IMG/VR virus record: IMGVR_UViG_3300045120_000583
Span: 1 to 49,699 of that record
Strand: one strand, 5' to 3'
Origin: a virus
DNA length: 49,699 nucleotides
The position numbers and the translations under genes are program-made. The notes below the pieces were generated by a model that made no database searches, had not been told where the DNA came from, and was given only the letters and a program-made list of their open reading frames with translations. Below, one piece after another: positions 7,474 through 28,560 of this stretch. Position 1 is the first letter of the stretch. Every line of letters begins with the position of its first letter.

Positions 7474-8120
7474 GTGTCCTCGCTCTTGTCGCCCACGACG
7501 ATCAGCTGGACGACGTTGTTCGCCGCATACGGCGTGCTGCCTTGGAAGAGCTGGACCAGCTCACCATCGATGGCAATCGTCCCATTCCACAGCACGATCC
7601 CCATGTTGGTCGTCGAGACTCGGATGAGCGGATGCGCAAAGAGGATGTTATCGATCGCCGTGTAGATACTGATGACACCGCGGGTGACGTCGATGGCCTT
7701 GATCGGACGGACCAGAAACGCCCCCCCCATCGGGCGCGACGACCGCTGCGGCATCAGATTGGTGAGTCCGACACCACTCACACTGAGCCCGCTAAAGTCC
7801 GTCGCCCGGTTGTTGCTGATCAGAAAGAGATAGGGGTCTTCCAGCGCAAAGCGAATGAGATCCTTGAATTGAAACTCGACCGCGATCTGCACCAGCGCCG
7901 CCGTATCCGCCGCGGTTGCCCCAATCGTGATGCGGGTGCGGCCCGTCGTCACCGTGCCCGTGGTGTCGAACTCAAACGTCACCGTCCGATCATTCACCGT
8001 GAGGGAGAAGGCGTTGCCGTCGACCACCGTATCCAAGGGGCCGAGGATGACCTGCGCCATCTGCGGCTGGTTGAACATGAATACGCGTTCGTTGACGATA
8101 CCCTTGTATTCCGTGAGCAT
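7470..8120 (-). CDS. Beta-rich late structural protein
   Basis: 216 residues, beginning MLTEYKGIVNERVFMFNQPQ with a ribosome site AAGGGGTAG. Residues 30-80 (VVDGNAFSLTVNDRTVTFEFD, then ITIGATAADTAALVQIAVEF) resemble a repeat fold common in phage structural proteins, where an attribute value is defined over an integration window. It sits between a zinc-ribbon protein and the nozzle-type protein, with overlapping start and stop codons, so it is probably part of the head-tail connector or tail. The exact role was not recognised. Confidence 0.65.
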   Translation of the reverse strand: MLTEYKGIVNERVFMFNQPQMAQVILGPLDTVVDGNAFSLTVNDRTVTFEFDTTGTVTTGRTRITIGATAADTAALVQIAVEFQFKDLIRFALEDPYLFLISNNRATDFSGLSVSGVGLTNLMPQRSSRPMGGAFLVRPIKAIDVTRGVISIYTAIDNILFAHPLIRVSTTNMGIVLWNGTIAIDGELVQLFQGSTPYAANNVVQLIVVGDKSEDT

Positions 8121-8122
8121 GG

Positions 8123-8356
8123 CTACCCCTTATACTCATCGACCGGCGGTGCACTGGTCGTGCGCACCGCTTCATAGGGGTGGTTCGGCATCCGTGGCTG
8201 CTCGGGCGGCGTGTTGCTATCGTCACACTCCGGACACTGCCAGCGGCCAAAGCGTTGCACGTACCGGAGCTTCGCCACAGGGAAATCAAGTCCGCAACTG
8301 GAGCACATACCCCAAGGCGATCGTCGTGCGGCGGCGAGCAGTCCTCGTCTATGCAT
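8123..8356 (-). CDS. Small zinc-ribbon protein
   Basis: 77 residues; its ATG overlaps the stop of the adaptor gene (TGATG), with AGGGAGGTTC upstream. Two Cys pairs, CSSC near residue 18 and CPEC near residue 41, form a classic zinc ribbon around an aromatic hairpin (RYVQRFGRWQ). Such small proteins occur in tail modules of many phages, possibly as structural zinc knuckles or assembly factors. A start at the internal Met-17 is possible but lacks a ribosome site. Confidence 0.65.
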   Translation of the reverse strand: MHRRGLLAAARRSPWGMCSSCGLDFPVAKLRYVQRFGRWQCPECDDSNTPPEQPRMPNHPYEAVRTTSAPPVDEYKG

Positions 8357-9000
8357 CAGAACCTCCCTGGGTAGACACCCTGTTGGGAGTCATGGACCGA
8401 CTCCCACATCATGGGAGAGAGCGGGGAGGTGAGGGCCACCTGGATCGGGCCGGGCAGACCCGCTTTCACGTCTTGGCGGGCGGCGCCTTTGCCGATCTCG
8501 GCCAGCGCATAGTACTGCGCGAGTTGGACCAGGCCGTCAAACCAGTCATCGCCCACTTGATAGACGCCGGGATCGGGTTGCGCCCGGTAGTAGAAGGTCA
8601 GCGTGGTCGCTTTGCTGGGCGCCTGGAAGATGAAGAACTGATAGCCATTGCGGATCCACATGGTCGGCACGCCGTCGGGCACCACATGATAGGAGAGATA
8701 GGTCTCGAACTCGCCCCGGCGCATATAGAAGCCATCGGTGTCGTTGCGGACGTGGGAGATGGCCCAGAACTTGGGCATCTGCTCGCCCCAGTTGCCACTC
8801 ATGCTGTAGCTGGATTGCCCCAGGACGAGCGGACACGGGCTGCTCACCCGATCAAACCCTTCACACCCCAGCACATTGGTCGCGAAGATGAATTGCGCTT
8901 GATCGAGATACTTCTGCAGCTGCGCATCGGTAATATCACTGCGATGGCCCAGGCGCGCCGCCAGTGCGGTCTTCGCATCGATGTAGGTAAAGAGGCTCAT
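8356..9000 (-). CDS. Head-tail adaptor / tubular protein A-type
   Basis: 214 residues. It is helical at both ends with a beta-rich middle: an N-terminal bundle (ALAARLGHRSDITDAQLQKYL), an aromatic centre (QFFIFQAPSKATTLTFYYRA) and a C-terminal helix (DGLVQLAQYYALAEIGKG). This layout matches P22 gp4-type and T7 gp11-type adaptors, which dock under the portal and receive the nozzle. It is followed in the operon by the nozzle-type protein two genes on. The ATG overlaps the upstream lipoprotein stop by four bases. Confidence 0.65.
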   Translation of the reverse strand: MSLFTYIDAKTALAARLGHRSDITDAQLQKYLDQAQFIFATNVLGCEGFDRVSSPCPLVLGQSSYSMSGNWGEQMPKFWAISHVRNDTDGFYMRRGEFETYLSYHVVPDGVPTMWIRNGYQFFIFQAPSKATTLTFYYRAQPDPGVYQVGDDWFDGLVQLAQYYALAEIGKGAARQDVKAGLPGPIQVALTSPLSPMMWESVHDSQQGVYPGRF

Positions 9001-9236
9001 TCGTCACCTGCCGCTTTCTTCTTGAGCGCCTTCAGGGCCTGCGCAATCTCGGTCGCATCGCTCTGTGAGGAGAAGGTCACGTCAACGCCATTGGGACACT
9101 TGATATGCACGGTCGGCTTCTCCAATACGGCCAGTGAATACAACGTCACGTCCCCGGTCCCGCCGCACATGGGCCCGCGGGAATGCCGATAGGCACACGC
9201 CGAGACGCCCAGCAGGACGCAGAGGAGGAGGGTCAT
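8997..9236 (-). CDS. Small lipoprotein (lipobox VSAC)
   Basis: 79 residues; the ATG at 9236 overlaps the stop of the DUF3309 gene (ATGA). The short hydrophobic N-terminus MTLLLCVLLGVSAC ends in a lipobox-like V-S-A-C, so Cys-14 would be lipidated and the mature protein tethered to a membrane facing the periplasm. Two further Cys (GPMCGG, HIKCPNG) may pair. The rest is a small mixed fold ending in a Lys-rich helix. Membrane-active pairs in late operons can be lysis (spanin-like) or superinfection-exclusion proteins; neither is proven here. Confidence 0.6.
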   Translation of the reverse strand: MTLLLCVLLGVSACAYRHSRGPMCGGTGDVTLYSLAVLEKPTVHIKCPNGVDVTFSSQSDATEIAQALKALKKKAAGDE

Positions 9237-9391
9237 AGCCGCCCCGTAATCAGCATCACGATCACGATGATCAGCAAGACCCCCACCGCCCCCGAGGGCC
9301 ACGGGCCATAGTGGTGCAGTCCCAGCGGCGGCAGCCCGCCGATCAGCATGACCACCAACAACAAGATGAGCAGCACCGTGAGTGGGGACAT
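9233..9391 (-). CDS. DUF3309-like small membrane protein
   Basis: 52 residues, starting MSPLTVLLILLLVVMLIGGL. Two hydrophobic segments flank a short loop containing PPLGLHHYGPWPSGAVG, the characteristic DUF3309 layout (hydrophobic helix, P-x-W/H-x-x-G-Y-x-P-S-G, hydrophobic helix). DUF3309 proteins are tiny two-helix membrane proteins of unknown function, common in proteobacterial genomes. Here the gene sits in the phage late operon, start-to-stop overlapping with the lipoprotein gene. Two membrane helices in 52 residues would also fit a holin-like protein, but this is speculation. Confidence 0.6.
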   Translation of the reverse strand: MSPLTVLLILLLVVMLIGGLPPLGLHHYGPWPSGAVGVLLIIVIVMLITGRL

Positions 9392-9406: not shown

Positions 9407-9811
9407 TTAGCGGCCAATCGGCTCCTCGTCGCTAATCTCCTCCGCGACAATCGCCGTCGCGCCCTCCACCTGCATGTGGGCGAGCGCCAGATCGATCTGG
9501 GCTTTGTCGGTCGTCAAATCCGTCATCGCTTCTGCCGTAACGATCGTCATCGGGATCTGGTCGTACCCGGTGGCCGCCAGCTCGGCAAACGCTTTGTGAA
9601 TCCCGTCGATCGCCTTGAGCGCCGCATCCGCTTTGGCCACACATTGCCCCGCCGTCTTGACCTGCTCGGTCAGGGGGGAACTGGACGGCGCACTCGGATT
9701 GTAGCGGCTCTCGTTCTCGGCCCCCGTTTTGATATTGATCGCCTTGGTCCGATACGCCTCGATCTCCGGGCGGATCGCATCCACCCCGCTGAGGGCGTCG
9801 TCCAGTGTCAT
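9407..9811 (-). CDS. Late helical protein of unknown function
   Basis: 134 residues from the ATG at 9811 (AAGGGAAGAA upstream). It is almost entirely helical (LDDALSGVDAIRPEIEAY; VAKADAALKAIDGIHKAFAEL) and acidic, ending EEISDEEPIGR. The frame is open for about 59 more codons upstream, but there it would overlap the preceding gene and lacks a ribosome site. The C-terminal EGAT-x(8)-EEISDEE resembles the C-terminal EGAT-x(4)-EVSEEED of the upstream protein, suggesting a shared acidic tail. Probable virion protein; function unknown. Confidence 0.7.
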   Translation of the reverse strand: MTLDDALSGVDAIRPEIEAYRTKAINIKTGAENESRYNPSAPSSSPLTEQVKTAGQCVAKADAALKAIDGIHKAFAELAATGYDQIPMTIVTAEAMTDLTTDKAQIDLALAHMQVEGATAIVAEEISDEEPIGR

Positions 9812-9839
9812 GGTGTTCTTCCCTTCTGTGTGTCTCGGC

Positions 9840-10208
9840 TTACGGACGGCGGCGCCCGAGCGGGTTGACCTGCGGTATATCTTCTTCCTCGGAGACCTCA
9901 TCGGTGACTCCCGTCGCGCCCTCGACGTTGAGCATCGTAAACGTGCGGGCAATCGAAATCGCCCGGTCGGCACTGCTGGGATCGCCATCGTTCACCACCG
10001 TAATCGTCACATCCCCCACGTTGCCGTTATGTTCGACCAGAATGGGTTGCTTGAACGTGGCCGGGTCAAACTCCTGTGCCTGGCAGCGGGCAAAGCCCGG
10101 GGGCACCATCGTGATCTGCGTCTCGCGACTGGTGTCGATCAGGCCGTTATACGTGAGGGTCCACGTCCTCCGTTTTCCGGAACTAATGGTTACATTCGCT
10201 TCCGCCAT
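9840..10208 (-). CDS. Small beta-rich late protein
   Basis: 122 residues, ATG after AGGAGAACAGT. The sequence begins MAEANVTISSGKRRTWTLTY and continues as a compact beta-sandwich-like protein with VGDVTITVVNDGDPSSADRA, ending in an acidic segment (EVSEEED). No signal peptide is present, in contrast to the seven genes just upstream. It may be a minor capsid or tail component. The acidic C-terminal segment is partly shared with the next gene. Confidence 0.65.
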   Translation of the reverse strand: MAEANVTISSGKRRTWTLTYNGLIDTSRETQITMVPPGFARCQAQEFDPATFKQPILVEHNGNVGDVTITVVNDGDPSSADRAISIARTFTMLNVEGATGVTDEVSEEEDIPQVNPLGRRRP

Positions 10209-10221
10209 ACTGTTCTCCTTG

Positions 10222-12684
10222 CTACTGGACCCGAATACAGACGGGTCCGTTATTCACAATCGGTGGGGGCTTGAGGACAAAGGTCGCCACACACGCCTTG
10301 CTACTGTCCATCGTTATCGATCCCGTCGTACATCCCGTCCCCGTGTACCCGGTGAAGGTACTGGTCGCGTCCGCCGTACTACTGAGCTCGACCACGGTGC
10401 CCGTGGGATAGGTCTCGGTACAGTCAGTGCCACAGGCAATCCCCGTGCCCGTGACCGTGCCGGTGCCGGTGCCCGCCTTACTGATGGTGAGGTTAAAGGT
10501 ACTCGGCGGCAAGCTGTTGAACGTGGCATTGCAGTTTTTGATCGCGTCCATCGTCACGGTGCCGTCGGTACAATCGGCATCGCCACTCCAGCCAATGAAG
10601 GTGCTGCTCCCGTCCGGGGTCGGCGTCAGGGTCACCACCGTATTGCCACTATAACTTTCCGTGCAGTCGGATCCGCAACTGATTCCGCCTGGGCTGCTGG
10701 TCACTGTCCCCCCACCAGTCCCGGCCTTGACCACTGTGAGGGCAAAGGTCGTGGGTGGCGGCGGCGCAAAGGTCACATACAGGGAGTAGGTCGTCGTGGT
10801 CAGGGTCGACGCAGGGAACGTCCCGGGCCAGGTGCCAAACGTCATGTTCCCCGTGCTATACACACCCTGGCCTGCACTGGTGGTGTTGTAGGCCATGTTG
10901 TTGACCGCACTACTGAGCCCATTGGTGTTATACAGCAGCCAGTAGGTCGTGGCCGGATTGAGCGTCGCCGTGATCGGCAGCGTGTTCCAACTGTTGGCCG
11001 TCAGCGTGCCACTGGTGGTACTGGCGACCAGGGTATCGGGTTTGTTGGTACTCGCATTGTTGGTGTAAATGCCGAATTGATAGGAGCGGTTCGCCGTCGT
11101 GGCATCAATGGCTCCCACATACACCGACATGCTGGCGACGGTCCCTCCCGTCACCGTCACGATCTTGGAGCCGTTCATGTAGTTGGAGTCGCCATCGTCC
11201 ATCTTGGTGCCGATGGTCGTCAGCCCCAGCGTCGTGTCACTGGTGCTGCTGGTGGTCGTAAAGCTGGCACTTTGGGTACTGGCCAGCGCGTTGCCGGCCA
11301 CGTCCTTCACCCCACTCCCGCCCCCGATCGCGCGTAGCGTGTAGCTGGTACTGATCGCCAGCGGGACATTGGGCGTGAGGGTGGCGACCCGCGTCGTCGC
11401 GTTATAGCTCACCGTACTCGCGACCAGGACCGCCCCCGGCGAACTCTTGAGGTCGATCGTACTGGTCGAGATGGTCGCCGGGTCCATGGGCTCACTAAAC
11501 GTGATCGTCGGCGCAATAGTGGTCGAGATGTTCGTCGCACTGTTGGCCGGACTCACCCCACTCACGGTGGGCGGGGTCGTGTCGGGGGCCACCGTCGTAA
11601 AGGTCCAGGTGAAGGTGCTCGCCAACGCATTGCCGGCCACGTCTTTGACGCCACTGCCCCCGCCGATCACCTTGGCGGTATAGACCGTGCTCGGCACGAG
11701 GGACGTCGTCGGGTGGAGCGTAATCACGCCGGGTGCGGATTCACTGACGGTCGCCGTGATCAACGTATTGCTCGGGTTGCGCAGCTCGACCGTGCTGGTC
11801 GTGACCGTGGCCGCATTCAGATCCTCACTCATCGTCGCGGTGACGTCGGTCGTCAGCGCAATGCCCGTCGCGCCGTTCGTCGGCGTCACACTGCTCACCG
11901 TGGGGGGGGTGGTATCCGGACCGCTGGGTTGTTGAATCGAGGCATCCGACATCAATCCGGTCGCGCCACTGCCCGTATCCGAATACACTTCAAAGTCATC
12001 CAGGTACCAGTGATTGTTGGGAATGCCGCAGTTATCGCCGTTAGACTGGATGTAGAACGGCGTCCATTTCACCCCGTGGAAGTCGTAGCCCGTATTGTTT
12101 TGGACCATGACCCCGTCATGCCAGACGCGGAAGATGCCCGCTGATTGGTTGACGTACATCTCCACCTTATGCCAGCTACTCTTATTATTGGTATGATCTC
12201 CCGCTGCACCGCCCCAGTAGGTAGGGAACTGTGAATTGGTCCAGGCGTTCCCGGCTGAGGTAAACGACTCCATTGGATGCCCGGCCACCGTATAGTAGTC
12301 GTGATAAGTCGTGCCCTCTGCAAAAAAGAACCGCAGCAGTTTGAAGGAGCATCCAGAGCCCTCGTCTCCCTGGTGAATATCCCCATCGGGCCGCTCCCAC
12401 ATACGAAGAAATAACTCGTTGTTATAGAGGACGTCGGTATTCAGTACGAGTCCGGGGAAACTATTGTTACCCGTAAAGTTGGCCCCGGCCATGTGCGTCC
12501 CGCTATGCGGCCCCGCAATGCCGTCGACAGAGGAGGTGACGATAGGAATTTTGCCCCGTCCATCGTCCATCCATTTGTTGGTATTGCCATCCTCAAAGCC
12601 GTCAGTAAAGACGCGGCCTGCCGCCTGGACCTGGGTCGTCAGACACAGCAGGAGCAGACTTAGGACGAGTATGCGGTGTGTCAT
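10222..12684 (-). CDS. Secreted multidomain protein: lyase/lectin-like jellyroll, two Big_5-like and two InlB-like repeats
   Basis: 820 residues; the ATG at 12684 overlaps the previous stop (ATGA). Residues 1-22 are a Sec signal peptide (RILVLSLLLLCLTTQVQA). Residues about 25-238 form a jellyroll resembling polysaccharide-lyase or LamG-like domains (FTDGFEDGNTNKW; WHDGVMVQNNTGYDFHG; NNHWYLDDFEVYSD). Two Ig-like Big_5 repeats follow (257-365 and 368-478, each opening DTTPPTVS and closing GVKDVAGNALAST), then a beta domain (485-640) and two Cys-containing repeats like divergent InlB B-repeats (648-724, 729-803; each with GTVT, CG-x-DCTE and a final C-x-ATF). This is typical of bacterial surface adhesins rather than virions. 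It may bind or cut polysaccharide; an exported or fibre role is inferred. Confidence 0.8.
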   Translation of the reverse strand: MTHRILVLSLLLLCLTTQVQAAGRVFTDGFEDGNTNKWMDDGRGKIPIVTSSVDGIAGPHSGTHMAGANFTGNNSFPGLVLNTDVLYNNELFLRMWERPDGDIHQGDEGSGCSFKLLRFFFAEGTTYHDYYTVAGHPMESFTSAGNAWTNSQFPTYWGGAAGDHTNNKSSWHKVEMYVNQSAGIFRVWHDGVMVQNNTGYDFHGVKWTPFYIQSNGDNCGIPNNHWYLDDFEVYSDTGSGATGLMSDASIQQPSGPDTTPPTVSSVTPTNGATGIALTTDVTATMSEDLNAATVTTSTVELRNPSNTLITATVSESAPGVITLHPTTSLVPSTVYTAKVIGGGSGVKDVAGNALASTFTWTFTTVAPDTTPPTVSGVSPANSATNISTTIAPTITFSEPMDPATISTSTIDLKSSPGAVLVASTVSYNATTRVATLTPNVPLAISTSYTLRAIGGGSGVKDVAGNALASTQSASFTTTSSTSDTTLGLTTIGTKMDDGDSNYMNGSKIVTVTGGTVASMSVYVGAIDATTANRSYQFGIYTNNASTNKPDTLVASTTSGTLTANSWNTLPITATLNPATTYWLLYNTNGLSSAVNNMAYNTTSAGQGVYSTGNMTFGTWPGTFPASTLTTTTYSLYVTFAPPPPTTFALTVVKAGTGGGTVTSSPGGISCGSDCTESYSGNTVVTLTPTPDGSSTFIGWSGDADCTDGTVTMDAIKNCNATFNSLPPSTFNLTISKAGTGTGTVTGTGIACGTDCTETYPTGTVVELSSTADATSTFTGYTGTGCTTGSITMDSSKACVATFVLKPPPIVNNGPVCIRVQ

Positions 12685-13124
12685 TGTATCCCTACTTCCG
12701 TCGGCGCGTACTTCCACGCCCCGTTATAGAACGCGCCCTTCTCACAGGTCGGTATCGTGACCCCGTTCACAATCGCACTCACCATGAGCAGCACCAGCTT
12801 GTCATCGGGCACCGTGATCTTGGCCGGCGACGTGACCGCGGTTCCCCCAGGGAGCCAACTCGCCCCATTGTCAACGCTGAACTGTATCGTGTAGCCACTC
12901 GCGCCCGTCACCGGGGCCCACATCACACTGATCTGCGTCGTCGGGGAGGCCTGCGGGTCCGGGGCCGCGGACGGGTCAGGAGCAGGCGGCTCTTGGGTCT
13001 GTTGGACCGGGGCCGCGTGCGGTCGTTCGGCCACCGCTTGTTCGTCATCCTGGGCCCGCACCCGGCGGTCCCCCACCACACTCAGTCCCAATAGTATACA
13101 GACGCTCACGAGTAACATTTTCAC
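12681..13124 (-). CDS. Secreted fibronectin-III-like small protein
   Basis: 147 residues. Signal peptide at residues 1-24 (MLLVSVCILLGLSVVG core), then a Pro/Ala/Gln linker (25-62) and a single Fn3-like domain (ISVMWAPVTGASGYTIQFSVDNGASW). The ATG overlaps the previous stop by four bases. One Cys near the C-terminus could pair with another protein. Fn3-like domains in phage proteins usually bind surfaces. It fits the run of exported proteins in this operon. Confidence 0.75.
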   Translation of the reverse strand: MKMLLVSVCILLGLSVVGDRRVRAQDDEQAVAERPHAAPVQQTQEPPAPDPSAAPDPQASPTTQISVMWAPVTGASGYTIQFSVDNGASWLPGGTAVTSPAKITVPDDKLVLLMVSAIVNGVTIPTCEKGAFYNGAWKYAPTEVGIQ

Positions 13125-15784
13125 GGTGCTCTCCTTATCGCTCCCTTACCAGTTATGCTGCCTTGTCCACTAAAACTGAAAAAGTCACGCGGCTGCGGCA
13201 CGGGCGGTGCCGTCGTCAGCCGTAACAGAAAGGCGTCATTGCTGACCGTCGTCACGGCCAGAAAGGCGTTCATATCCTGCGCATACAGAAACCGGCTGCC
13301 GACTTCAAAGGTCGGACTGTAGCCCGGATGCCCCTCGAGCGTCTGCGTGCTGCAGGTGTTCGTCACGGGATCAATCGTGTAGACCTTCTTGCCTCCAATC
13401 CAGCCAACCACGACATTCCTGGTCGGGTCGAACGCCAGCCCAGGAAAGGACACCATCAGCGGGACGCACTCAAAATCGGTGATTCTCGCGTAGCTGACGT
13501 CGTTAATGTCAAAGTACCCGCACTCCAGTTCGCCGCAGATATACAGCCGGCGGTGGGCAGAATCCCAGGCCACACTCGGCCGTTGCCCAATCGGGGCCCG
13601 ACAACTGCCGAGCCGGGTAAAACTATCGCCGCTCGGATCGTACTCATCGACACACCCATTGCTGTATACCCACACATGATGGGAGGACGGGTCGTAGGCG
13701 ACCGCGTGCGTGCTCGCATCCGGGATCGTCCCACTGGGCGACTTCTGACTCCAACTATCCGTCCCCGGTGTCCAGATCCAGGTATCTTGGAGAAAGGCGG
13801 TCTCGAGCCGACGTCCGCCACTCACAAAGAGTTGATTGACATTCTGCAGCCAGGCCACGCCGTTGCGCGTCTGTCGGCCATTGGGCCGCCCGCCCGCCGT
13901 GATCTCTCCGGTACTCCCCAGATGGGTATCCGAGACATTGACGAGGCGGGTCTGGAACGTAGCCGGTGTGATCCCGACGATGGCGTTACTGTCCCAGGTC
14001 TGATTGTTGGAGAAGAGGAGCAGCCGACTGGCCTGCGTGTCATACGCAAACCCGCCCCGATCCACAATATCCACCAGCAGGCTTGGGATCGCCGACGCAA
14101 TGTCGGTGCGTCCCAGGTCCTGCCACCCTAACGCCGTCGGATCAATCGTCGTCTGATCCTGGGTGTTCACCTGCAAGATCCGGCCCGCCGTCTCGGTGTT
14201 GGACGGATCACTACAATCCGTACTCGTCTCGGCATCAACCGCATACGTCACCAGCGTCCCTGAAGAGATCGGCGTCGTATCGATATACGAGAGTCCCGTC
14301 ACTTCAATAGGAGGCGCGCCATTACGCGATAGCCAATACTTATCAATCGGCTTGTCCGCGAGTGCGGGAGTCCACCTGACCGTCGTACTCGTCACCCCAT
14401 TTTGCGTCCAGAGAGACGGAGTGCTAATCACGGTATTGAGGGTCGCATTCGATTCGTAGGCCCCCATGTCCCGCGACCCGACCGTCGTCCGCGTCGTCGT
14501 ATTGGAGGGATGAAAGTAGTTGCTGGTGGGATTGAGACTGTACCCGTGGGCACTCCCCGGATCCGTCGTCCCCGCATTGATGAGCGTCGAACCCGCAAGG
14601 TGATAGTTTTGGTTCGTGGGATCGCTAAAGTTCGCGGCCGCAATCGTGCTGTAGATAAAATTATTCGCTGGGGCCGTCTGGGTCGTCCGGCTCGCCCCGG
14701 TCGCATACACCACGGACCCAGACACGAACCCCGCGAGCCCATTGTTCACCATCGTAAACGGACTCGGGGTCACCAGCTCCGCCCAGATCCCCACGGTACT
14801 GGTCGTCCCCAGCGCATCGACAATGGTGTTGTACGTCACATAGAGTTCATCCGCGGAGTTGCTCTGCCCACTGGGTGCCAGGGCCCCATGCCAATGGACG
14901 ATGGCATAGTTGCGCGTGCTCTGTGACTGGTAGATGACGTTGCCCTTGAGATAGACCGTCCCGCCATAGGGGAAGTTGAGCTCCTCTGCCGTTTCGCCGG
15001 TACAGATCACATTGGGTTGCGCCACGGTGGTGTAGATCTCGGTGCCCGCCGGAAAGTCGGCAATGCGGTTATACTCGATCGTGCTGGTGTTGCACTTGCT
15101 CTCGACCCCGTTCCCTCCCCGCGCATCATGCACCCAGGTACCGCGCATCAGGAAATTCCGACACTGCCCGGTGCTGATATTGTGAGCCACGGGCGTGCCC
15201 CAGTTGGTCCCCTGCGTCAGCCCGCCATTATAGGCAATCTCACTGTTCGTGATCGTCAGATCATACAGGCGACTGCCCCCCGCCAGCGGTTCGTCGATGC
15301 CCTTAATGCCATTGTCGTTATGCCGCATGAAGACGTTATCGAAGGTAAAGGACGTGTTGACGCCTTTGACGGGGGCCGCATCCTGGGTGAGGTTATGGGC
15401 GCCGCCCATCTCCACGTTCTGAATCGTCAGGGTGGAGGCGCCTGCGGGGTTCGCGTACCACATGGCGCCATTCGCTGGCAGCGGCGTGGTCGTGCGGCGG
15501 ATCAGCGCGCGCTGGGTGCCGACGCCCTGGATGGTGAGGCCGGTCTGGGTAAAGGTACAGAAGTCATCACTATAGAGCAGCCGATTGCCACTCCCATCCA
15601 CACTATCAATCGCAATGGTGTCCCCATTCACTGCTACGGCCAGTGCCGCACAGACCGTCGCATAGGTCTTGCCTGGCCCCACGGTGCGCGTCGCCGCCTC
15701 CGCTGCATAGGTCATGGCCACGAGCGCCCCGAGCAGCAGCGCTAGCGTCACCCAGAAATGTTTCCAACTCGCGGTTAGTGACAT
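13121..15784 (-). CDS. Secreted beta-helix protein with C-terminal kelch-like propeller
   Basis: 887 residues. Signal peptide at 1-31 (FWVTLALLLGALVAMTYAAEA). Residues about 35-445 are a right-handed parallel beta-helix: repeated short strands with Asn ladders (LTIQNVEMGGAHNLT; LTITNSEIAYNGG; STIEYNRIADF; LYVTYNTIVDA), ending SRDMGAYES, a common last-rung motif. An Fn3-like module follows (about 450-545), then kelch/propeller-like blades (NGVAWLQNVNQLFVSGG; THAVAYDPSSHHVWVYSNG; PGLAFDPTRNVVVGW; about 555-870). Such helices often degrade or bind polysaccharide. The start overlaps the previous stop by 10 bp. Domain limits are read by eye. Confidence 0.8.
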   Translation of the reverse strand: MSLTASWKHFWVTLALLLGALVAMTYAAEAATRTVGPGKTYATVCAALAVAVNGDTIAIDSVDGSGNRLLYSDDFCTFTQTGLTIQGVGTQRALIRRTTTPLPANGAMWYANPAGASTLTIQNVEMGGAHNLTQDAAPVKGVNTSFTFDNVFMRHNDNGIKGIDEPLAGGSRLYDLTITNSEIAYNGGLTQGTNWGTPVAHNISTGQCRNFLMRGTWVHDARGGNGVESKCNTSTIEYNRIADFPAGTEIYTTVAQPNVICTGETAEELNFPYGGTVYLKGNVIYQSQSTRNYAIVHWHGALAPSGQSNSADELYVTYNTIVDALGTTSTVGIWAELVTPSPFTMVNNGLAGFVSGSVVYATGASRTTQTAPANNFIYSTIAAANFSDPTNQNYHLAGSTLINAGTTDPGSAHGYSLNPTSNYFHPSNTTTRTTVGSRDMGAYESNATLNTVISTPSLWTQNGVTSTTVRWTPALADKPIDKYWLSRNGAPPIEVTGLSYIDTTPISSGTLVTYAVDAETSTDCSDPSNTETAGRILQVNTQDQTTIDPTALGWQDLGRTDIASAIPSLLVDIVDRGGFAYDTQASRLLLFSNNQTWDSNAIVGITPATFQTRLVNVSDTHLGSTGEITAGGRPNGRQTRNGVAWLQNVNQLFVSGGRRLETAFLQDTWIWTPGTDSWSQKSPSGTIPDASTHAVAYDPSSHHVWVYSNGCVDEYDPSGDSFTRLGSCRAPIGQRPSVAWDSAHRRLYICGELECGYFDINDVSYARITDFECVPLMVSFPGLAFDPTRNVVVGWIGGKKVYTIDPVTNTCSTQTLEGHPGYSPTFEVGSRFLYAQDMNAFLAVTTVSNDAFLLRLTTAPPVPQPRDFFSFSGQGSITGKGAIRRAP

Positions 15785-17649
15785 GTGTGCGGTGCTGCTC
15801 CCCCGGATTGAAATTCGTAGGCGCCGATGTCGATGGTCCCGCCACTGGTACGTGCGAGATGATCCAAGTCTTGGTCAATGTGAATGCCGTACAGCGTAAA
15901 AAAGGTGTCGTACTCTGCGGCGGCCGCCCCATGGTTCATGGCGGGTGAGGTATCCGTGATATGGTAATTTTGCTGTGAGGAATCACTAAACGTGATGCAG
16001 CCCGCTGCCGGGTTGTACAGCATTTGGGTAAATCCAGTTTCATCACTGAGGCACGTATCAGGTTGCTGAATCCGTGGCGCATTACTTGGGGCAATAAAGC
16101 CCGCATTGCCCAAGAGACAGCCTGCACACTTCCCCGGAAACGCCGCTTGAAACGCGGCAATTGAGGTATAGACCGTAGCCAACCCTGTATTCGAGAAGAT
16201 GATACGTGTAGACGGATCGGAAAAAAGAGTGTTGGTGATTGTCGCAACCGCAGCCGAGACCGGATCGGCAAACCGGATATGCCAGCCTCGCGTCATATCC
16301 AGCCCACCGATGATGTTGTTCTTCAAGATCCACGTTTGCTCTCCCTTGGCAGGAGCAGCAGAATGTGACGCAAGTACGAACCCTGAGTCAATGTTGTACA
16401 TCGTATTGTTCACGAAGTGCCGCGTGCTCGCCCCATTCCCGATGGCTGTGATCGTCGCTTGCGCAACATTGCTCGTTGTATCGAAGAATGTGCGCTCAGT
16501 ATGAATGTTGTGAAAGTAGTTGCCAATCGCGTACTGCTCGGCAACATTGATGTTCCCAGGCGGCACGCCGCCTCCTCCTGATCCGGTCTCTTCACTGAAT
16601 CGGATACCGCTTTCCGTCCCGTAGCAATGGTTGAAGATCCACCATGTGCGGGTTGCGCCATAGTGCGTACCGAAGCACGGCGCTGCCGGGACCGAGTGCG
16701 ACCGGATGATGTCATGCACCGTGTTCTCCGAGAAAATCACGTCTTGTGATTCCTTCGCCCACAATCCACTTTGATGATTGTGATGAGAATTATTGCGCCC
16801 AACATACACAAATTGCACGTTGGCATTTGTGCTGTTTCCGCCGTTGATCTGCATCCCATCACCCCCGTTCCAGTCAAACTCGTTGTCGAGGACCCAGATG
16901 CGCCGTGAGCAACACGTAAGTGTAATCCCGTGCGTGTCTTGATCGTCTTTGGGGTCAGTAATATGGCGCCCGCCGTTGTGATGGATATGATTGTGATAGA
17001 AAATAATGTCCCGGAACAGTGAGCCTGTTGCGCCGCCCGCTGTTCCCGCTTGCACAGCCCCCCCACCGAGATTCCCGGTCACTTCATTGTTGCGAAAGAC
17101 AATGTTGTTCATATCCAAGCCGGCACTGCGCGGTTGCAGAAAGAAACAGCGGTCATTGTCACTGGAGTAGGTGGTACTCAGCGCACACTTGAGATTCTCT
17201 ATCGTGGCGTAACTTCCCCATATCCCCATCGGTGCAGTGATGGTCGGGATGTTGGCGCTGTCCTGTCCACGAATGAATACGGGCTGTGCGAGCGTGCCTT
17301 GTGACCGGATTTCTCGTCCTTGTCCAGTCTGCCGAAAACTGTAGGTGCCATGCAGTTCCACGACACTGCCAGCCGGAAGCAAATTAGGAATCGTCAGCCG
17401 TGGTGCTGACGGATGACCCGTCCGTGTACTCGGTGTATCGGTTGCGCCAGTGCAGGACTGGCAGACATAGTACCAGAGGGCTTTTGCTGTTGATGGTGTC
17501 GTAAGCCACTCTGCCGGTCGGGCGGGCGCTTGCGCTTCCCAATCCCAGCCGGGCGTGCTCGTGTTGGGCGACGGAATACCTAATGGCATCGCCACGACCG
17601 CACCCGCGATCTGGGGGAAGAGGACAAAAAGACACAGCAGTATCCACAT
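15775..17649 (-). CDS. Secreted right-handed beta-helix protein (lyase/depolymerase-like)
   Basis: 624 residues. Signal peptide at 1-17 (MWILLCLFVLFPQIAGA). From about 95 to 615 the chain is a right-handed beta-helix with successive NNIVFRNNEVTGN, DIIFYHNHIHHNGG, IWVLDNEFDWNGGDGMQING, QFVYVGRNNSHHNHQSG and DVIFSENTVHD rungs, ending TIDIGAYEFQ. His/Asp-rich rungs (HHNGGRHITDPKDDQDTHG) could bind metal or sugar. The family includes pectate-lyase-like enzymes and phage tailspikes, but catalytic residues cannot be assigned here. It is a paralogue in architecture of the following 887-residue protein. A signal peptide is unusual for a tailspike. Confidence 0.8.
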   Translation of the reverse strand: MWILLCLFVLFPQIAGAVVAMPLGIPSPNTSTPGWDWEAQAPARPAEWLTTPSTAKALWYYVCQSCTGATDTPSTRTGHPSAPRLTIPNLLPAGSVVELHGTYSFRQTGQGREIRSQGTLAQPVFIRGQDSANIPTITAPMGIWGSYATIENLKCALSTTYSSDNDRCFFLQPRSAGLDMNNIVFRNNEVTGNLGGGAVQAGTAGGATGSLFRDIIFYHNHIHHNGGRHITDPKDDQDTHGITLTCCSRRIWVLDNEFDWNGGDGMQINGGNSTNANVQFVYVGRNNSHHNHQSGLWAKESQDVIFSENTVHDIIRSHSVPAAPCFGTHYGATRTWWIFNHCYGTESGIRFSEETGSGGGGVPPGNINVAEQYAIGNYFHNIHTERTFFDTTSNVAQATITAIGNGASTRHFVNNTMYNIDSGFVLASHSAAPAKGEQTWILKNNIIGGLDMTRGWHIRFADPVSAAVATITNTLFSDPSTRIIFSNTGLATVYTSIAAFQAAFPGKCAGCLLGNAGFIAPSNAPRIQQPDTCLSDETGFTQMLYNPAAGCITFSDSSQQNYHITDTSPAMNHGAAAAEYDTFFTLYGIHIDQDLDHLARTSGGTIDIGAYEFQSGGAAPHTCH

Positions 17650-17657
17650 AAGGTTCC

Positions 17658-18389
17658 CTACTCCGCAATGTAAATGCGCCGTCGTGCCCCACCGGCTGCC
17701 GGCGCTGAGCTATCCGCCGCTTTGAAGACGGCCGCCACCGCAATCCAATTCTGCGAGACGCTCAACGTCCACGTCGGCGTCAATGGCGTCGTCGTGGTGT
17801 TGATCAGAAATGATCCATTCCCCGCTGGTGCTGTCGTCCCCCCGTTCAGCTCCCCCATCTGCGTCCACCCCGGTGGCGGATCTTGGACGATCCCCGCCCC
17901 GTCTTCCGTCTCAAACCCTACGGCAACCGTCCCATTCACTGTTGGTGTGATACTAACCGCTGGGGCCGTTCCGGTGCCATTGGCCCCCACGATACCGACA
18001 TCGAGCGGAGTGCCATGCTGCCCGATGAAAGAGTCAATCGTATAGGTAATCCGGCAATTGGTCGGTGAGGGGTTCACGACCACTTGCACGGTCTGCGTTG
18101 CGGCAACCACGGTCCAGGCAACGAACAAGCGATAGACCCCAACGGCGTAAGTCTGGACCGTGTAAGTGTTGCCGCGATTATCGGTCACGCCAATGGACGT
18201 ATTCGAGCCATCCGCAGCCCCCGTGACGACAATCATTTCCCCGGACGCGGGCGTCCCACCGACCGCCTGGGCAAGCGAATCAGACGACGACGACGTCCCG
18301 ATTTGCGTCTTTCTGCCCGCCACCTCGGTGATCACCGCATGTGACGTCAACGGCAGCAGCAGCAGCAAAAGAGTCAGTACTGTTTTCAT
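17658..18389 (-). CDS. Secreted beta-sandwich protein
   Basis: 243 residues; the ATG at 18389 overlaps the stop of the fibre-like gene (ATGA). Signal peptide at 1-18 (KTVLTLLLLLLPLTSHA). The mature part is all-beta with the motif SIGVTDNRGNTYTVQTYAVG, typical of secreted domains where a D-x-x-GN-x-Y hairpin recurs, and a WTLSVSQNWIAVAAVFKA strand pair near the end. The C-terminus is basic (GGARRRIYIAE). No enzyme motif was found. It is one of seven consecutive signal-peptide proteins. Confidence 0.75.
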   Translation of the reverse strand: MKTVLTLLLLLLPLTSHAVITEVAGRKTQIGTSSSSDSLAQAVGGTPASGEMIVVTGAADGSNTSIGVTDNRGNTYTVQTYAVGVYRLFVAWTVVAATQTVQVVVNPSPTNCRITYTIDSFIGQHGTPLDVGIVGANGTGTAPAVSITPTVNGTVAVGFETEDGAGIVQDPPPGWTQMGELNGGTTAPAGNGSFLINTTTTPLTPTWTLSVSQNWIAVAAVFKAADSSAPAAGGARRRIYIAE

Positions 18390-21300
18390 TTCGAGTAACT
18401 CAGGATCACGCCCGCCAAACTTGCCGTTGCGCCGAGCGTGTCGGTCCCAACTGTACCATCGCGAGTCAGCGCAATGTGGAGCAGTAATGGCCCACTCGTA
18501 CAACTACTCATACTGCCTCCACTAAAGTTAATCGTCGCACTGTTGATTTGATTGGCGGTCGCGAGGTTCGCATCTGTCACCGTTGCCGCCGTGTCATACG
18601 CCGCATCATCCACACTCCCAATCGGCGTACACACGACTTGGCTGCTCCATGTCGTGTTCTTCGTGTTGTCTGCGACCGTCGTGCGGTAGAGCACCGTCAG
18701 TGACATCCCGTTCGCTGCCGTAAACGAGAGAATGGGGACCGTCAGCTTAATGCCATGGAGTCCCCCATCGACAAAATCCGCCACGCCGCGCAGGAGCGAG
18801 GTATTGGTCGTCCCCGCCGAACACGTCACCGAGGGCGCACTCGCGGCACTACTGTCCCACAATAACTGTGCGGTCGTATCCACACAGCCCACTACCGGCA
18901 ACAACACGTCCGCAGCGGGGCGGCCCCACACCGCGTGATTGCTACTGGCCACCAGCCGTGATCCATCGGCCACGCCATTCACCGCCGTCAACGCATCAAT
19001 CGCGGCCGCCTGCGTCTTCTCGCCCGTGCCGCCGCGGCCAATCCCGGTGACGCCGTAGTTCCACTTGCTCGTCCCATCCGACACCAAATCAATATACGCA
19101 TTGGTCGTCGTGACAACGAGTGAGGTGGCGCCGTTAATCGTATTGCTGCCCGCGCGTGCCAATGTCGCTGTATTCGTCGTGGTCACGCCACCCGCCACAT
19201 CCGTAAAGCGCAGATGGGCACCCGCGGGGTACGCATTGGCGAGCGGCAACGTATAGGTGCGGGGGGCCGTCAACGTAGCCGTCAACAACGTATCGATAAT
19301 CGGTGCGACAATCGTGTCGTTGGCATCCCCCACCGTCTGTGTATTAACGATCCGTGCTAGCGGCACCGTGCCCGTGGCTAACAGCGAGGCATCCGTGCCC
19401 CCAATCGCACACGTCGTCACCTCACTCAGACTATCTGTGCAGAGTCCTAACGACGGCGTCAGATCCGGCATGCCGATCTTCCCGGTGGACTTGATATACA
19501 TGTGCGTGACTGGCGCATTTTCCGTGGACCCGGTCGTCCCCGCCGGACTAGTCTCGAACGTGAGCTGCCCACCAGCGCCCGTCCCGCGCCCATGCCCGCC
19601 CCCGATATGCAACCCACCGCCGGCCGTGTTGGCCCCACTCACGGTCTGTCCCGTAATCGTATACGGCGCAAGAATACTCCCGGTCGTTGGACCAAACCGA
19701 AACTCCCGCGCATTGGTCCCCCGGGCGATGCGCGTATCTGCATTGAACTCAATGTTCCCGGCACTACTAATCGCAATACCGGTATTGGTATCGTTGATCG
19801 ACACCACCGGGGAGCTGCTCGGGACTTTGAGCGCATTCACCGACAACGTCCCGTCATCCAAAAAACTGGTTCCTGACGGTGTGTCTTTCACACTCGTGCC
19901 AGGCGTCCCATTCCATCGGACAATCCCATTATCCGTACTGCTCCCAGGGCCGGTGATCGTCCCGCCGCCTGCGGTCGCTGCCTTCCATACTGCGTTCCCG
20001 GTCGCCGTATCCTTGGTCAGCACGTATTCATTCGTGGCCGCACTGACATTGCTGAACAGGTTGATCGCTTGCTGCGCGGTCAGAAACGTACAGGTTGATA
20101 ACGTACTGCTCGGCGTGCCACACACCATTGGTGAGTTGGCTGCACTGGGATCTGTCGTCAACGTCAGATAGAGATCCGTCGCTCTGTTCGCCCCCGTGAA
20201 CCCAAAGGCATGCAACGCATCCGCTCCCAACAGGCCGAGCTGACCAGTCCCAGGCCCGGTCACATTGAGTTGCGGGGCGGTCATTGTTGAATCAAAAGTC
20301 TTGGCCCCACTCAGCGTCTGGACATCGGCATTGACCACGCCCCGTGCCCCCGGCCCCGCATCCGGGACACTCAGCGTCACCGTCGAGCCCGCGGCCGTCC
20401 ACGTCACATCTGTCCCCGCCGTGTCATCCGCAAATGTAAACGTCGTGCCCGTAATGCCATTGATCGTAATCGGTCCCCCGCCACCGCCCCCACTGCCCGT
20501 GCCGCACGGTGTCCCTTGATCCGCCAGCTTCCCCCCAGCCGCCCACTTCGCGCAATTCTCCACGGTTGGCGTGGCATCCACGGTGGCCACAATGGTCCCC
20601 GCACTCAGCGTCTTCCCCGTAATGCCAGCCGCAGTCGTCGCAGTCGTGGCGTTGGTCGCGTTTGTGGCATTCGTCGCGTTGGTTGCCGTGGTTGCGGATG
20701 TCGCGGTCGTCGCGCTCGTGGCCGTCGTCGCATTCCCTGCCAGGGTCGCCGTGATGGTGCCCGCCGCGAAGTTGCCCGAGCCATCACGCTGCACGATCCG
20801 GTTGGCCGTATTCGCACTCGTGCTCCCGTGTGCCGTCGTCGCCGCAATATGGGCATCGAGCGGCGCTTGCAGAATCCCAATACTCGTGCGGGTCTGGGCA
20901 AAATTCTTGGTGAGCGTCAGTCCCGCCGCGGCGGTGCCCCACGTACTACTGATGCTCATCGCATTGGTCAGGGTGTTGTCGATCGTGAACGTCCCCTTCT
21001 TGGAGGACTCCACCTGCGTGTTCCCGTATCTGGCAGTGATCTCGCCGACCTGATTGTTCGTCGCGCCATCGCCACACAACTGCCAAAAGATACTCAGATA
21101 CTCGCCCGTGATGGCGGGGGGCGTAAAGGTCACCGCAAGCGTCTGCGCCCCATAGGCGGCCGTCACCGTGAGGGTGCCCGCATTATTCCCGGTAATCTGG
21201 CCGAACACCTCTTGCTGCGCGCACTGCTGCGTGCCGAGCGTGTTGGCAGGCAGGTTATAGGTATAGAGCACGGTCGGCGACGTCGTATTGCCGACCGTGG

Positions 21301-21424
21301 TATCGCCCGTCGACGAATCGACCGCGCCACCCCCGCCCCCACCCCCACCGCTCCCACCCCCATTCCACCCAGCCTGCGCCAGGGTCGTCAGCAGGACCAG
21401 CACCAACGCGAGAATATGTATCAT
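18386..21424 (-). CDS. Fibre-like protein with a Sec signal peptide
   Basis: 1,012 residues. Signal peptide at 1-19 (MIHILALVLVLLTTLAQAGW), then a Gly-only spacer (21-33). Residues 190-270 carry the tail-fibre signature DAHIAATTAHG, then RDGSGNFAAGTITATLAGNA and a low-complexity NAT/SAT repeat (231-265). Later regions are Thr/Ser/Gly-rich beta structure with GGGGSG linkers near 310, a GGGLHIGGGHGRG loop, and a globular C-terminus (about 880-1012). Fibre-like sequence normally has no export signal; here it follows the start of the secreted block. Candidates are a virion fibre made from an exported precursor or a surface-displayed adhesin. Confidence 0.8.
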   Translation of the reverse strand: MIHILALVLVLLTTLAQAGWNGGGSGGGGGGGGAVDSSTGDTTVGNTTSPTVLYTYNLPANTLGTQQCAQQEVFGQITGNNAGTLTVTAAYGAQTLAVTFTPPAITGEYLSIFWQLCGDGATNNQVGEITARYGNTQVESSKKGTFTIDNTLTNAMSISSTWGTAAAGLTLTKNFAQTRTSIGILQAPLDAHIAATTAHGSTSANTANRIVQRDGSGNFAAGTITATLAGNATTATSATTATSATTATNATNATNATNATTATTAAGITGKTLSAGTIVATVDATPTVENCAKWAAGGKLADQGTPCGTGSGGGGGGPITINGITGTTFTFADDTAGTDVTWTAAGSTVTLSVPDAGPGARGVVNADVQTLSGAKTFDSTMTAPQLNVTGPGTGQLGLLGADALHAFGFTGANRATDLYLTLTTDPSAANSPMVCGTPSSTLSTCTFLTAQQAINLFSNVSAATNEYVLTKDTATGNAVWKAATAGGGTITGPGSSTDNGIVRWNGTPGTSVKDTPSGTSFLDDGTLSVNALKVPSSSPVVSINDTNTGIAISSAGNIEFNADTRIARGTNAREFRFGPTTGSILAPYTITGQTVSGANTAGGGLHIGGGHGRGTGAGGQLTFETSPAGTTGSTENAPVTHMYIKSTGKIGMPDLTPSLGLCTDSLSEVTTCAIGGTDASLLATGTVPLARIVNTQTVGDANDTIVAPIIDTLLTATLTAPRTYTLPLANAYPAGAHLRFTDVAGGVTTTNTATLARAGSNTINGATSLVVTTTNAYIDLVSDGTSKWNYGVTGIGRGGTGEKTQAAAIDALTAVNGVADGSRLVASSNHAVWGRPAADVLLPVVGCVDTTAQLLWDSSAASAPSVTCSAGTTNTSLLRGVADFVDGGLHGIKLTVPILSFTAANGMSLTVLYRTTVADNTKNTTWSSQVVCTPIGSVDDAAYDTAATVTDANLATANQINSATINFSGGSMSSCTSGPLLLHIALTRDGTVGTDTLGATASLAGVILSYSK
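20630..20734 (-). repeat. Short-period tandem repeat within fibre-like gene
   Basis: A run of 6- to 9-bp units encoding NATTATSATTATSATTATNA and further NAT/TAT triplets at residues 231-265 of the fibre-like protein. It forms a Thr/Ala/Asn linker likely to make a beta-rich or flexible shaft. Length variation by slippage between related phages would be expected. Confidence 0.7.
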
Positions 21425-21431
21425 TGCATGC

Positions 21432-21761
21432 TCACTGAAACGTTATGAATAACAGGCCAGAATCGATGCGGTTGATGACCAGGCCCTTGTTGACGGAAAA
21501 CGGCAGACTCACCTCAAACTCGGTCGCACCCGTGGGCGCAGTGGTCTGCAAGATCTTGCGTCCGGTCGTATCGACCAAGATGAGCGTATCCCCTGGGGAG
21601 CCGACGTTCACCCAGCGGATCGAGGTAATGCTCAGCCCCCCCGTAATCGGCGAGGCCCCCGCCGTATCAATGAGCCAGGGACTCCGCTGAAAGTCATTTG
21701 CTGCCCAGGTGCAGACCGGGAGCAACAAGAAGAGACAGAGTAGGACACCAATGCTCTTCAC
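21432..21761 (-). CDS. Small secreted late protein
   Basis: 109 residues. Signal peptide at 1-20 (KSIGVLLCLFLLLPVCTWA). The mature part is a small beta domain (TSIRWVNVGSPGDTLILVDTTGRKILQTTA) of the type seen in short phage structural proteins that stack as caps or decoration units. Its fold would fit a virion, but the signal peptide points to export. It opens the block of seven secreted proteins after the capsid genes. Confidence 0.7.
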   Translation of the reverse strand: MKSIGVLLCLFLLLPVCTWAANDFQRSPWLIDTAGASPITGGLSITSIRWVNVGSPGDTLILVDTTGRKILQTTAPTGATEFEVSLPFSVNKGLVINRIDSGLLFITFQ

Positions 21762-21781
21762 GCGGTCCTCCTCTCTCTGTG

Positions 21782-22048
21782 TTAGGTTTGGGTGCCGAGG
21801 ACAACACCATCAGTGATGTAATTTGCGGGGGGACTGGTATGCACGCGCAGCTTATTGCTGCCATCGGGTTGCGGCCAGAGATAGGTGGCCGTGGTCACCC
21901 CGGCGCTATCCGTCGACTCCAGGCAAATCACCGCACTCGTGCTCTTCTTGCGGCACCGAATCGTAATCATGCCGCCAGCATCTTTGCTGCTCGGCCCCCC
22001 GAAGCGGGTTTCGCCACTCACATTGCGTGCTTGTCGTGCAGGCATCAT
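21782..22048 (-). CDS. Small basic late protein after capsid
   Basis: 88 residues from the double ATG at 22048/22045, placed 3-7 bp after AAGGAG. A longer reading to 22123 would overlap the capsid stop and lacks a ribosome site. The chain is basic at first (MPARQARNVSGETRFGG), then beta-rich (MITIRCRKKSTSAVICLES). It lies 41 bp after the capsid gene. It may be a minor capsid protein; no family was recognised. Confidence 0.65.
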   Translation of the reverse strand: MMPARQARNVSGETRFGGPSSKDAGGMITIRCRKKSTSAVICLESTDSAGVTTATYLWPQPDGSNKLRVHTSPPANYITDGVVLGTQT

Positions 22049-22089
22049 TGTCTCCTTTCCGAACCGTTGCGAACCGATTCCCGAACACC

Positions 22090-23028
22090 TCACGAACCGG
22101 GCGATGACCACGTTCCACGCCACCCTGAGTGACCCGAGCCCATGCGGAAGGAGACCTTAGTCTTGACTCCCCCATGCGTAAAGTCAGGATCGGTTTGCGT
22201 GCGGATCCCGCGGCGCACCCAGACGTTGAGATCGTGATCGTCGGCCAGCAGCGTCCATTGGCCGGGGTCGGTGATGTAATGCACGATCTCATACTTCACG
22301 ATCCCCTTCATCGGGTTGATCGTGTTGTTGGCAGAGTTGGGTTCGTACTCGGTGAGGAGGAGTTTCTTGGCCACCCACTCCAGCTCCGGGGGGATGATGA
22401 GTTGGGCAGGCATCTTCGGTTGGGGTAGACCCGACTCGTTGGGGATGCGCCGGAAGTTAGTAATGGCATCCTCGAGGTTGGCTTGACTGAGATCTTGTGC
22501 CACTGCCGGACGGTTAGCGTAAGTCCCACCGCGAGCGATGACATGAGCAGTACTAAAGAGAGACTCGTTAGTCGGCCCCACGGGATTAAACCCAATGCCG
22601 CCACCTGTAGTCCCAAAGCCCAGAGTAAGAATCTTAAAGGCCTGAATTTCAATCTCGTATTCTGCGGCGGCGCCGAGCTCGGCACCGATTTTGGGGACGA
22701 TGCCGTAGAGTTCATCTTCGATGCTCTCCTCTGAGATACGAGCACCAAGAGCAAAAGTATAAGGAGTATATCGAACAGTACCAACCACAGCGATATTATC
22801 AAAATCAATGGGTCCATACTCTGCCTTCGGTGCGACGCGGCCGACCGAGCGCACGAGGGTGTCATCGAAAAAGGCTTTGCCGGTATTACTACCAGGTTTT
22901 TGCGGAATGATGTTAAACACCTTGCGATAGAATTTGGGAAACGTATCGACCGTGCTGAAGATGGCCTTGCGCAACCCTGGCGTAATCAGCGACACGATCT
23001 GCGGCGTGGTTAAAATAAAATCTGCCAT
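22090..23028 (-). CDS. Major capsid protein (Mu gpT-like, HK97 fold)
   Basis: 312 residues. The N-terminal LTTPQIVSLITPGLRKAIF, the central E-loop/P-domain section and the C-terminal pattern AQLIIPPELEWVAKKLLLTE, YEIVHYITDPGQWTLLADD match Mu gpT-type major head proteins with an HK97 fold. It would assemble the icosahedral shell with the upstream scaffold. It follows a decoration-type gene. Codons between about 22500 and 22920 use many A/T third bases (GGT, GCT, CGT, ACT), unlike the neighbouring GC-rich genes, which may reflect selection for expression or recombination. Confidence 0.85.
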   Translation of the reverse strand: MADFILTTPQIVSLITPGLRKAIFSTVDTFPKFYRKVFNIIPQKPGSNTGKAFFDDTLVRSVGRVAPKAEYGPIDFDNIAVVGTVRYTPYTFALGARISEESIEDELYGIVPKIGAELGAAAEYEIEIQAFKILTLGFGTTGGGIGFNPVGPTNESLFSTAHVIARGGTYANRPAVAQDLSQANLEDAITNFRRIPNESGLPQPKMPAQLIIPPELEWVAKKLLLTEYEPNSANNTINPMKGIVKYEIVHYITDPGQWTLLADDHDLNVWVRRGIRTQTDPDFTHGGVKTKVSFRMGSGHSGWRGTWSSPGS

Positions 23029-24870: not shown

Positions 24871-25111
24871 GTCCATCTCCTTCTCGACTCTGTCGTTCGC
24901 TCGTCTCCTCACTTGGTGTGATTGGGAGATCGGCCGCGGCGACCGCGCCCTCGATGTCCTGCATCAGCACCAAGAGCTGATGCACGGCGCGAAAGTGCGC
25001 GCGCGCCTCAATAAGATCCTCCGCCTTGCAGGCCACCAGGTGGTCCCGCGCCGTTAGGTACCGCTGCCCCATTTGCTCCTGCAGGAGCAGCCATTGCTCC
25101 GAGTCCGCCAT
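24830..25111 (-). CDS. Small helical protein overlapping portal and scaffold genes
   Basis: 93 residues from the ATG at 25111, preceded by AGGAGGACC. Its start lies 104 bp inside the 3' end of the portal gene and its end 41 bp inside the scaffold gene. Helical, with RDHLVACKAEDLIEARAHFR and VHQLLVLMQDIEGAVAAADL, then a charged tail. Overlapped placement supports tight translational coupling. Function unknown; a head-assembly accessory is possible. Confidence 0.6.
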   Translation of the reverse strand: MADSEQWLLLQEQMGQRYLTARDHLVACKAEDLIEARAHFRAVHQLLVLMQDIEGAVAAADLPITPSEETSERQSREGDGHGRKRPSYRSAGY

Positions 25112-28534: not shown

Positions 28535-28560
28535 GCCCACCCCCGCGGGTTGCTCGTCAG

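Follow-up and report, generated by a model that had tools for sequence, protein, structure and literature searches.

A run of signal-peptide-bearing genes in the structural operon of a podovirus-like phage: a candidate exported appendage module

Tailed phages are taken to assemble the whole particle in the cytoplasm. The coat proteins pIII and pVIII of filamentous phages travel by way of Sec on their route into the virion; these virions are extruded through the membrane, whereas the phage studied here is of the head-tail type, with a terminase and a portal. Known podovirus fibres and tailspikes (P22 gp9, T7 gp17, and Tail_Collar proteins) are produced and put together in the cytoplasm and lack signal peptides (SPs), with none in lambda, T7, or P22. 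Some proteins of tailed phages are known to use Sec: endolysins, the T4 antiholin RI, and Lom (PMC6116005, PMC8385771, PMC12309495). fOg44 Lys44, SAR endolysins, Lom, spanins, and T4 RI all take the host Sec route (PMC6116005, PMC8385771), but such exported helpers are single lysis or envelope proteins. The mosaic adhesive trimer (MAT) proteins of Bdellovibrio are phage-fibre-like and lie behind a signal peptide, but they are bacterial and stand on the surface of the predator (PMC10769870). In the cultured Pseudomonas phages AH02 (gp17) and Orisa/Orimi (Orionvirus), one SP gene per genome was found, annotated as hypothetical, with the SP right before a fibre-type domain. The Orisa genome paper mentions neither signal peptides nor mass spectrometry (PMC11256456).

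The locus described here is a phage-encoded run of seven SP genes, or eight in a sister phage, for fibre-, spike-, and enzyme-like proteins. It resembles podovirus fibres and tailspikes in its putative shaft, beta-helix, and LamG-type domains (Collar being carried by the related phage MW202554), in its place in the structural operon, and in its fast turnover between sister phages; it differs from them in bearing SPs. No published precedent for such an exported run in a tailed phage was found in freely accessible journal papers, which is not proof of novelty.

The window, i.e., the whole stretch of DNA analysed, was a complete virus record of 49,699 bp with a 127-bp direct terminal repeat. The window phage is a podovirus-like head-tail phage. 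The block (10222-21761, all on the minus strand) filled the capsid-adaptor interval, and its placement between capsid and connector genes in the first-pass annotation was borne out by both border genes (Table 1). Block genes overlapped by 4-10 bp or were spaced by 7-8 bp, and ATGA/GTGA couplings set the starts at 18389, 13124, and 12684 regardless of the signal peptides. The tight junctions and couplings supported one polycistron and the called starts. All seven starts named earlier were genuine starts in the ORF list, several being fixed by ATGA/GTGA overlap. The G+C content was 0.597 in the block and 0.606 in the remaining genome, with similar GC3, which ruled out a recent foreign island. 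The scan of window genes picked up no integrase, and Pfam detected neither a holin nor an endolysin in the genes scanned. Adjoining the gp10-like tail gene, 7470-8120 (minus strand) encoded a leaderless 216-aa protein that may be a tail tip or fibre of the cytoplasmic kind. Beside the adaptor gene, an internal Met start in 8997-9302 (minus strand) yielded the lipobox-like MTLLLCVLLGVSAC, a possible outer-membrane spanin or lipoprotein.

Table 1. Positions of the SP genes and of the main structural genes in the window.
Feature	Position	Strand	Description
Terminase	26930-28540		64% identical in the sister phage
Portal	25008-26930		
Major capsid protein	22090-23028	-	Upstream border of the SP block; 79% identical in the sister phage
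Block gene 1	21432-21761	-	SP (MKSIGVLLCLFLLLPVCTWA↓ANDF) + 89-aa beta-sandwich
Block gene 2	18386-21424	-	SP (..TTLAQA↓GWNGGG) + 994-aa fibre, Gly-rich start, GNFAAGTIT-type shaft repeats
Block gene 3	17658-18389	-	SP + 225-aa protein, family unassigned; ATGA overlap fixes start
Block gene 4	15775-17649	-	SP + beta-helix (PF13229, Beta_helix, 3.3e-6), 13 Cys
Block gene 5	13121-15784	-	SP + 857-aa protein, weak kelch-like repeats
Block gene 6	12681-13124	-	SP + 123-aa protein; weakly similar to phrog_4971, a family of major tail proteins (5e-6)
Block gene 7	10222-12684	-	SP + lyase/LamG-like domain, two Big_5, divergent InlB repeat
Head-tail adaptor, SU10-type	8356-9000	-	PF24175, 1.7e-10; downstream border of the slot
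PEP-CTERM protein	41245-41940	+	SP (score 6.1) + sorting tail (TPEPSTLIMVASGLLGLVWVRWKRSV); PF07589, 28.5 bits against a cut-off of 20.7 in the genome search
fn3 protein	42004-43542	+	SP + fn3, 12 Cys; right-hand operon; ninth putatively exported protein

An SP scorer combining hydrophobic core, n-region charge, and the -3/-1 rule was written for this analysis. The seven block leaders scored 7.3, 7.8, 6.8, 7.3, 7.3, 6.3, and 7.5, and all had an n-h-c layout and small residues at -3/-1. Ten Escherichia coli signal peptides scored 4.7-7.4 with the same scorer, and the remaining 21 late ORFs of the window scored 2.5 or less. The earlier claim of seven adjacent late genes with Sec-type signal peptides was thus upheld. 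Applied to lambda, T7, and P22, the scorer picked out Lom, Bor, Rz, and Rz1 alone; head, tail, and fibre proteins all stayed unflagged. The base rate was 21 of 1135 genes (1.9%) in 63 distant relatives, with starts picked blind to signal peptides, and 11 of 3405 shuffled proteins (0.3%) passed the scorer. Seven consecutive SP genes are therefore far beyond chance, and chance or composition was excluded as the source of the run. The +1 residues at the predicted cuts were A, G, V, V, A, Q, and A; with no Cys among them, the phage lipoprotein type (Llp, Bor, Rz1) was rejected. A secreted or SAR endolysin reading was also rejected, since Pfam found no peptidoglycan hydrolase domain in the seven proteins. 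The leaders suggested that the block proteins are probably exported by Sec and cleaved.

The domain content agreed in part with the first-pass annotation. Pfam recovered two Big_5 domains (4.5e-40), an InlB-like repeat (6.5e-6), and one beta-helix, but neither the second beta-helix nor the Fn3 domain assigned to the block; the Pfam fn3 match was located outside it. The kelch-like blades of 13121-15784 gave a weak Pfam match under the curated cut-off. The shaft repeats were visible directly in the sequence of block gene 2, which had one domain in common (E 1e-15) with the SP-bearing fibre of another phage (G008). No PHROGs fibre match was obtained for the seven proteins, and 18386-21424 had no match among PDB sequences. 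The MAT proteins, which have a ~130-aa beta-rich domain behind the SP, were compared with the window fibre through this PDB sequence search. Searches by tblastn with gene 1, the fibre, two fibre domains, and the kelch-like gene found no homologue in isolated phages. Structure prediction gave a small beta-sandwich for block gene 1 (pLDDT 80) and an unusable model for 13121-15784 (pLDDT 41). The best PDB matches of the gene 1 fold were nucleoplasmin-type cores (Z 7.2). Phage cement (7dou) and turret (8qpg) structures followed at Z 5.2, and the fold was too generic for assignment. Several block proteins ended in a linker, an arginine pair, and a short strand, which was unconvincing as a shared C-terminal sorting motif. 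No outer-membrane barrel, autotransporter or sorting domain, or lipobox was found in the seven by Pfam and the +1 residues, so surface display before lysis would have no obvious route.

The cysteine content of block proteins was 1.35% and 1.70%, compared with 0.27% and 0.14% in other structural proteins, an excess of 5-12 times (OR 5.2, p 3e-10). The excess over leaderless fibre-like proteins was small (1.56-fold, p 0.07). Folding in an oxidising compartment is therefore plausible, and the cysteine content supports it without being decisive; as proof of export, the excess was rejected.

The first-pass annotation proposed a search of related phages for the same block, and a sister phage of 48.7 kb (G006) was found to carry eight consecutive SP genes in the matching capsid-adaptor interval (9724-22054). 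Three pairs of SP genes were clearly homologous (gene 1, fibre, and kelch-like), and one more was related by the lyase-like domain only. The orthologues of block genes 1 and 5 were 57% and 41% identical, both with SPs. The lyase-like part of block gene 7 matched 15253-17541 of the sister phage, which has PF14099 at 1.5e-21. The remaining genes of the sister block had no detectable relation to those of the window, yet all bore SPs. With only three to four homologous pairs and SPs on all genes, the leaders persist through protein turnover. In homologous pairs, the leader bodies had diverged and the mature N-termini past the predicted cut were alike. The paired junctions (window/sister) were TWA↓ANDFQRSPWLID/SFA↓ANNIQRTPWLID, AQA↓GWNGGG/AQA↓GWVGGG, and AEA↓ATRTVGP/AEA↓ATLQVGP, the counterpart of block gene 2 retaining AQA↓GW.GGG. 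Diverged leaders with alike junctions argue for selection for export and not for the leader's own sequence. The -3/-1 rule and n-h-c layout held in 15/15 block proteins of the two phages, and no internal start with a Shine-Dalgarno of at least 4, which could give a leaderless isoform by dual start, was found past any of the 15 leaders.

Two SP proteins on the plus strand of the window (41245-41940 and 42004-43542) had been overlooked earlier. The PF07589 tail was confined to the first of them and absent from the seven block proteins. The PEP-CTERM gene suggests a Gram-negative, exosortase-bearing host. The sister phage also encodes an SP protein at 44328-45002 (L016 4328-5002), with no homology to 41245-41940; its ..QFVPAPAA followed by a charged tail resembles a PEP-CTERM protein with a lost tail.

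The capsid-adaptor slot was 12.6-13.1 kb with SPs in these phages versus 0.3-2.2 kb and leaderless in the five relatives with both borders found. In relatives, the slot holds a leaderless LamG protein (PF13385, 8.4e-12) and a homologue of block gene 1. Leaderless homologues (~90 aa) of the mature part of block gene 1 lay 3' of the capsid gene in nine relatives, four at E 3e-5 to 0.01 in a single-sequence search; a single round of profile search added the other five, all with E of 1.7e-8 or below. At least one leader therefore sits on an old late-cluster protein. Such homologues are known for 1/7 block proteins only, gene 1, itself a candidate virion part. The module may be read as having begun with a leader added before an old late-cluster protein, followed by sixfold growth of the interval by exported proteins. 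In bacterial genomes, the capsid query found no relative, and the TerL query found one MAG contig (L030) without an SP gene.

Signal peptides recurred on appendage-type proteins of other environmental phages. In MW202554, four SP genes stood side by side (fibre-like, small, LamG PF13385, and GH28/tail-spike-like), and an SP also immediately preceded a Tail_Collar fibre (PF07484, 1.7e-23) whose match among the loci compared, in L084, was leaderless. G008 had two adjacent SP genes; G009 two, or three with an internal start of its fibre; G007 two single ones, its SP fibre being homologous to the AH02 and Orisa/Orimi proteins; and L002 one, which was weaker. Domains typical of fibres or spikes were present in MW202554 (Collar, tail-spike phrog) and in L002. 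Separately, L041 14995-19890 encoded, beside an SP fibre, a 1614-aa SP protein that has 44 Cys and includes a PT-rich linker. Since SPs stand on fibres, spikes, and LamG proteins elsewhere, the seven block proteins are probably exported appendage or depolymerase proteins.

The first-pass annotation had read the block as a coordinated exported set, which held in the sister phage, and had left open whether its products go to the cell surface or medium or form a fibre by a new export route. The comparative evidence leans to the exported fibre because of the slot's leaderless LamG and small late proteins in relatives, the leaderless homologues of gene 1, and the SP on a Tail_Collar fibre elsewhere. 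The block is read, at close to even chance, as an expanded module of exported appendages that join virions at lysis: a fibre, a beta-helix spike, proteins of the lyase/LamG type, and small beta proteins. The signal peptides, the kept cleavage junctions, the conservation of export across gene turnover, and the late-cluster origin of at least one member are the parts that the sequences support; disulphide folding, the timing, and the joining of virions at lysis are what we infer, the last being the reading we prefer. The block proteins would be made alongside capsid proteins, each as a Sec precursor whose leader signal peptidase cuts off on export. They would then fold, with disulphides, in an oxidising envelope compartment (the periplasm if the host is Gram-negative). 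There they may wait until holins open the inner membrane at lysis, meet the virions, and attach to or coat them, serving there in receptor binding and matrix degradation. P22 tailspikes can join finished heads in vitro. Canonical holins form micron-scale holes (Dewey 2010, listed as a reference in PMC9025707). Several points count against the appendage reading: leaderless late-cluster homologues are known for gene 1 only, the cysteine excess over leaderless fibre-like proteins is small, exported parts would need to reach enough virions before dilution, and the leaderless protein at 7470-8120 could be an ordinary cytoplasmic tail tip or fibre.

The strongest alternative, which we consider a real though lesser possibility, is that the proteins are exported but never enter the virion. 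A periplasmic pool of free adhesins and polysaccharide-degrading enzymes would be released before or at lysis, where it would serve to mask receptors, to release progeny from debris, or to open up the matrix surrounding neighbours. The same SP evidence and the lyase-, LamG-, and beta-helix-type domains fit this alternative, exported phage helpers such as lambda Lom are known (PMC12309495), and envelope targeting by this phage is also evident from its PEP-CTERM protein. However, the block stands where the structural operon has its appendage genes, one of its products is a fibre and another has leaderless late-cluster homologues, the Tail_Collar fibre of MW202554 carries an SP, and an outer-membrane route is not evident from lipobox, beta-barrel, or autotransporter domains.

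Bacterial secretome cargo, acquired by the phage and serving the infected or lysogenised host instead of the virus, is unlikely. Big_5, InlB-like, and PEP-CTERM domains are frequent in bacterial secreted proteins, and bacteria display phage-fibre-like SP proteins such as the Bdellovibrio MATs (PMC10769870), but in both phages the block takes the same place among the structural genes, its first, fibre, and kelch-like members being homologous, the G+C content of the block is that of its genome, and the genes scanned included no recognisable integrase. Uncleaved hydrophobic N-termini, acting as cytoplasmic anchors or docking peptides on the virion, would fit the cytoplasmic assembly of known tailed phages but are very unlikely given the cleavage features of all 15 leaders, the kept junctions behind diverged leaders, the leaderless homologues without any such segment, and the high cysteine content.

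An exported run of this kind would have one of two meanings: part of the particle is completed outside the cytoplasm, or a large set of adhesins and enzymes is secreted before the burst. We tentatively propose, as a possibility somewhat short of even, that some head-tail phages finish their virions outside the cytoplasm, with Sec-exported, disulphide-folded receptor-binding and depolymerase appendages fitted only at lysis. The question is directly testable in cultured phages with single SP-bearing fibre genes (AH02 and Orisa). If either meaning is true, the prediction, expression (disulphides, periplasmic expression), and study of receptor-binding proteins would change.
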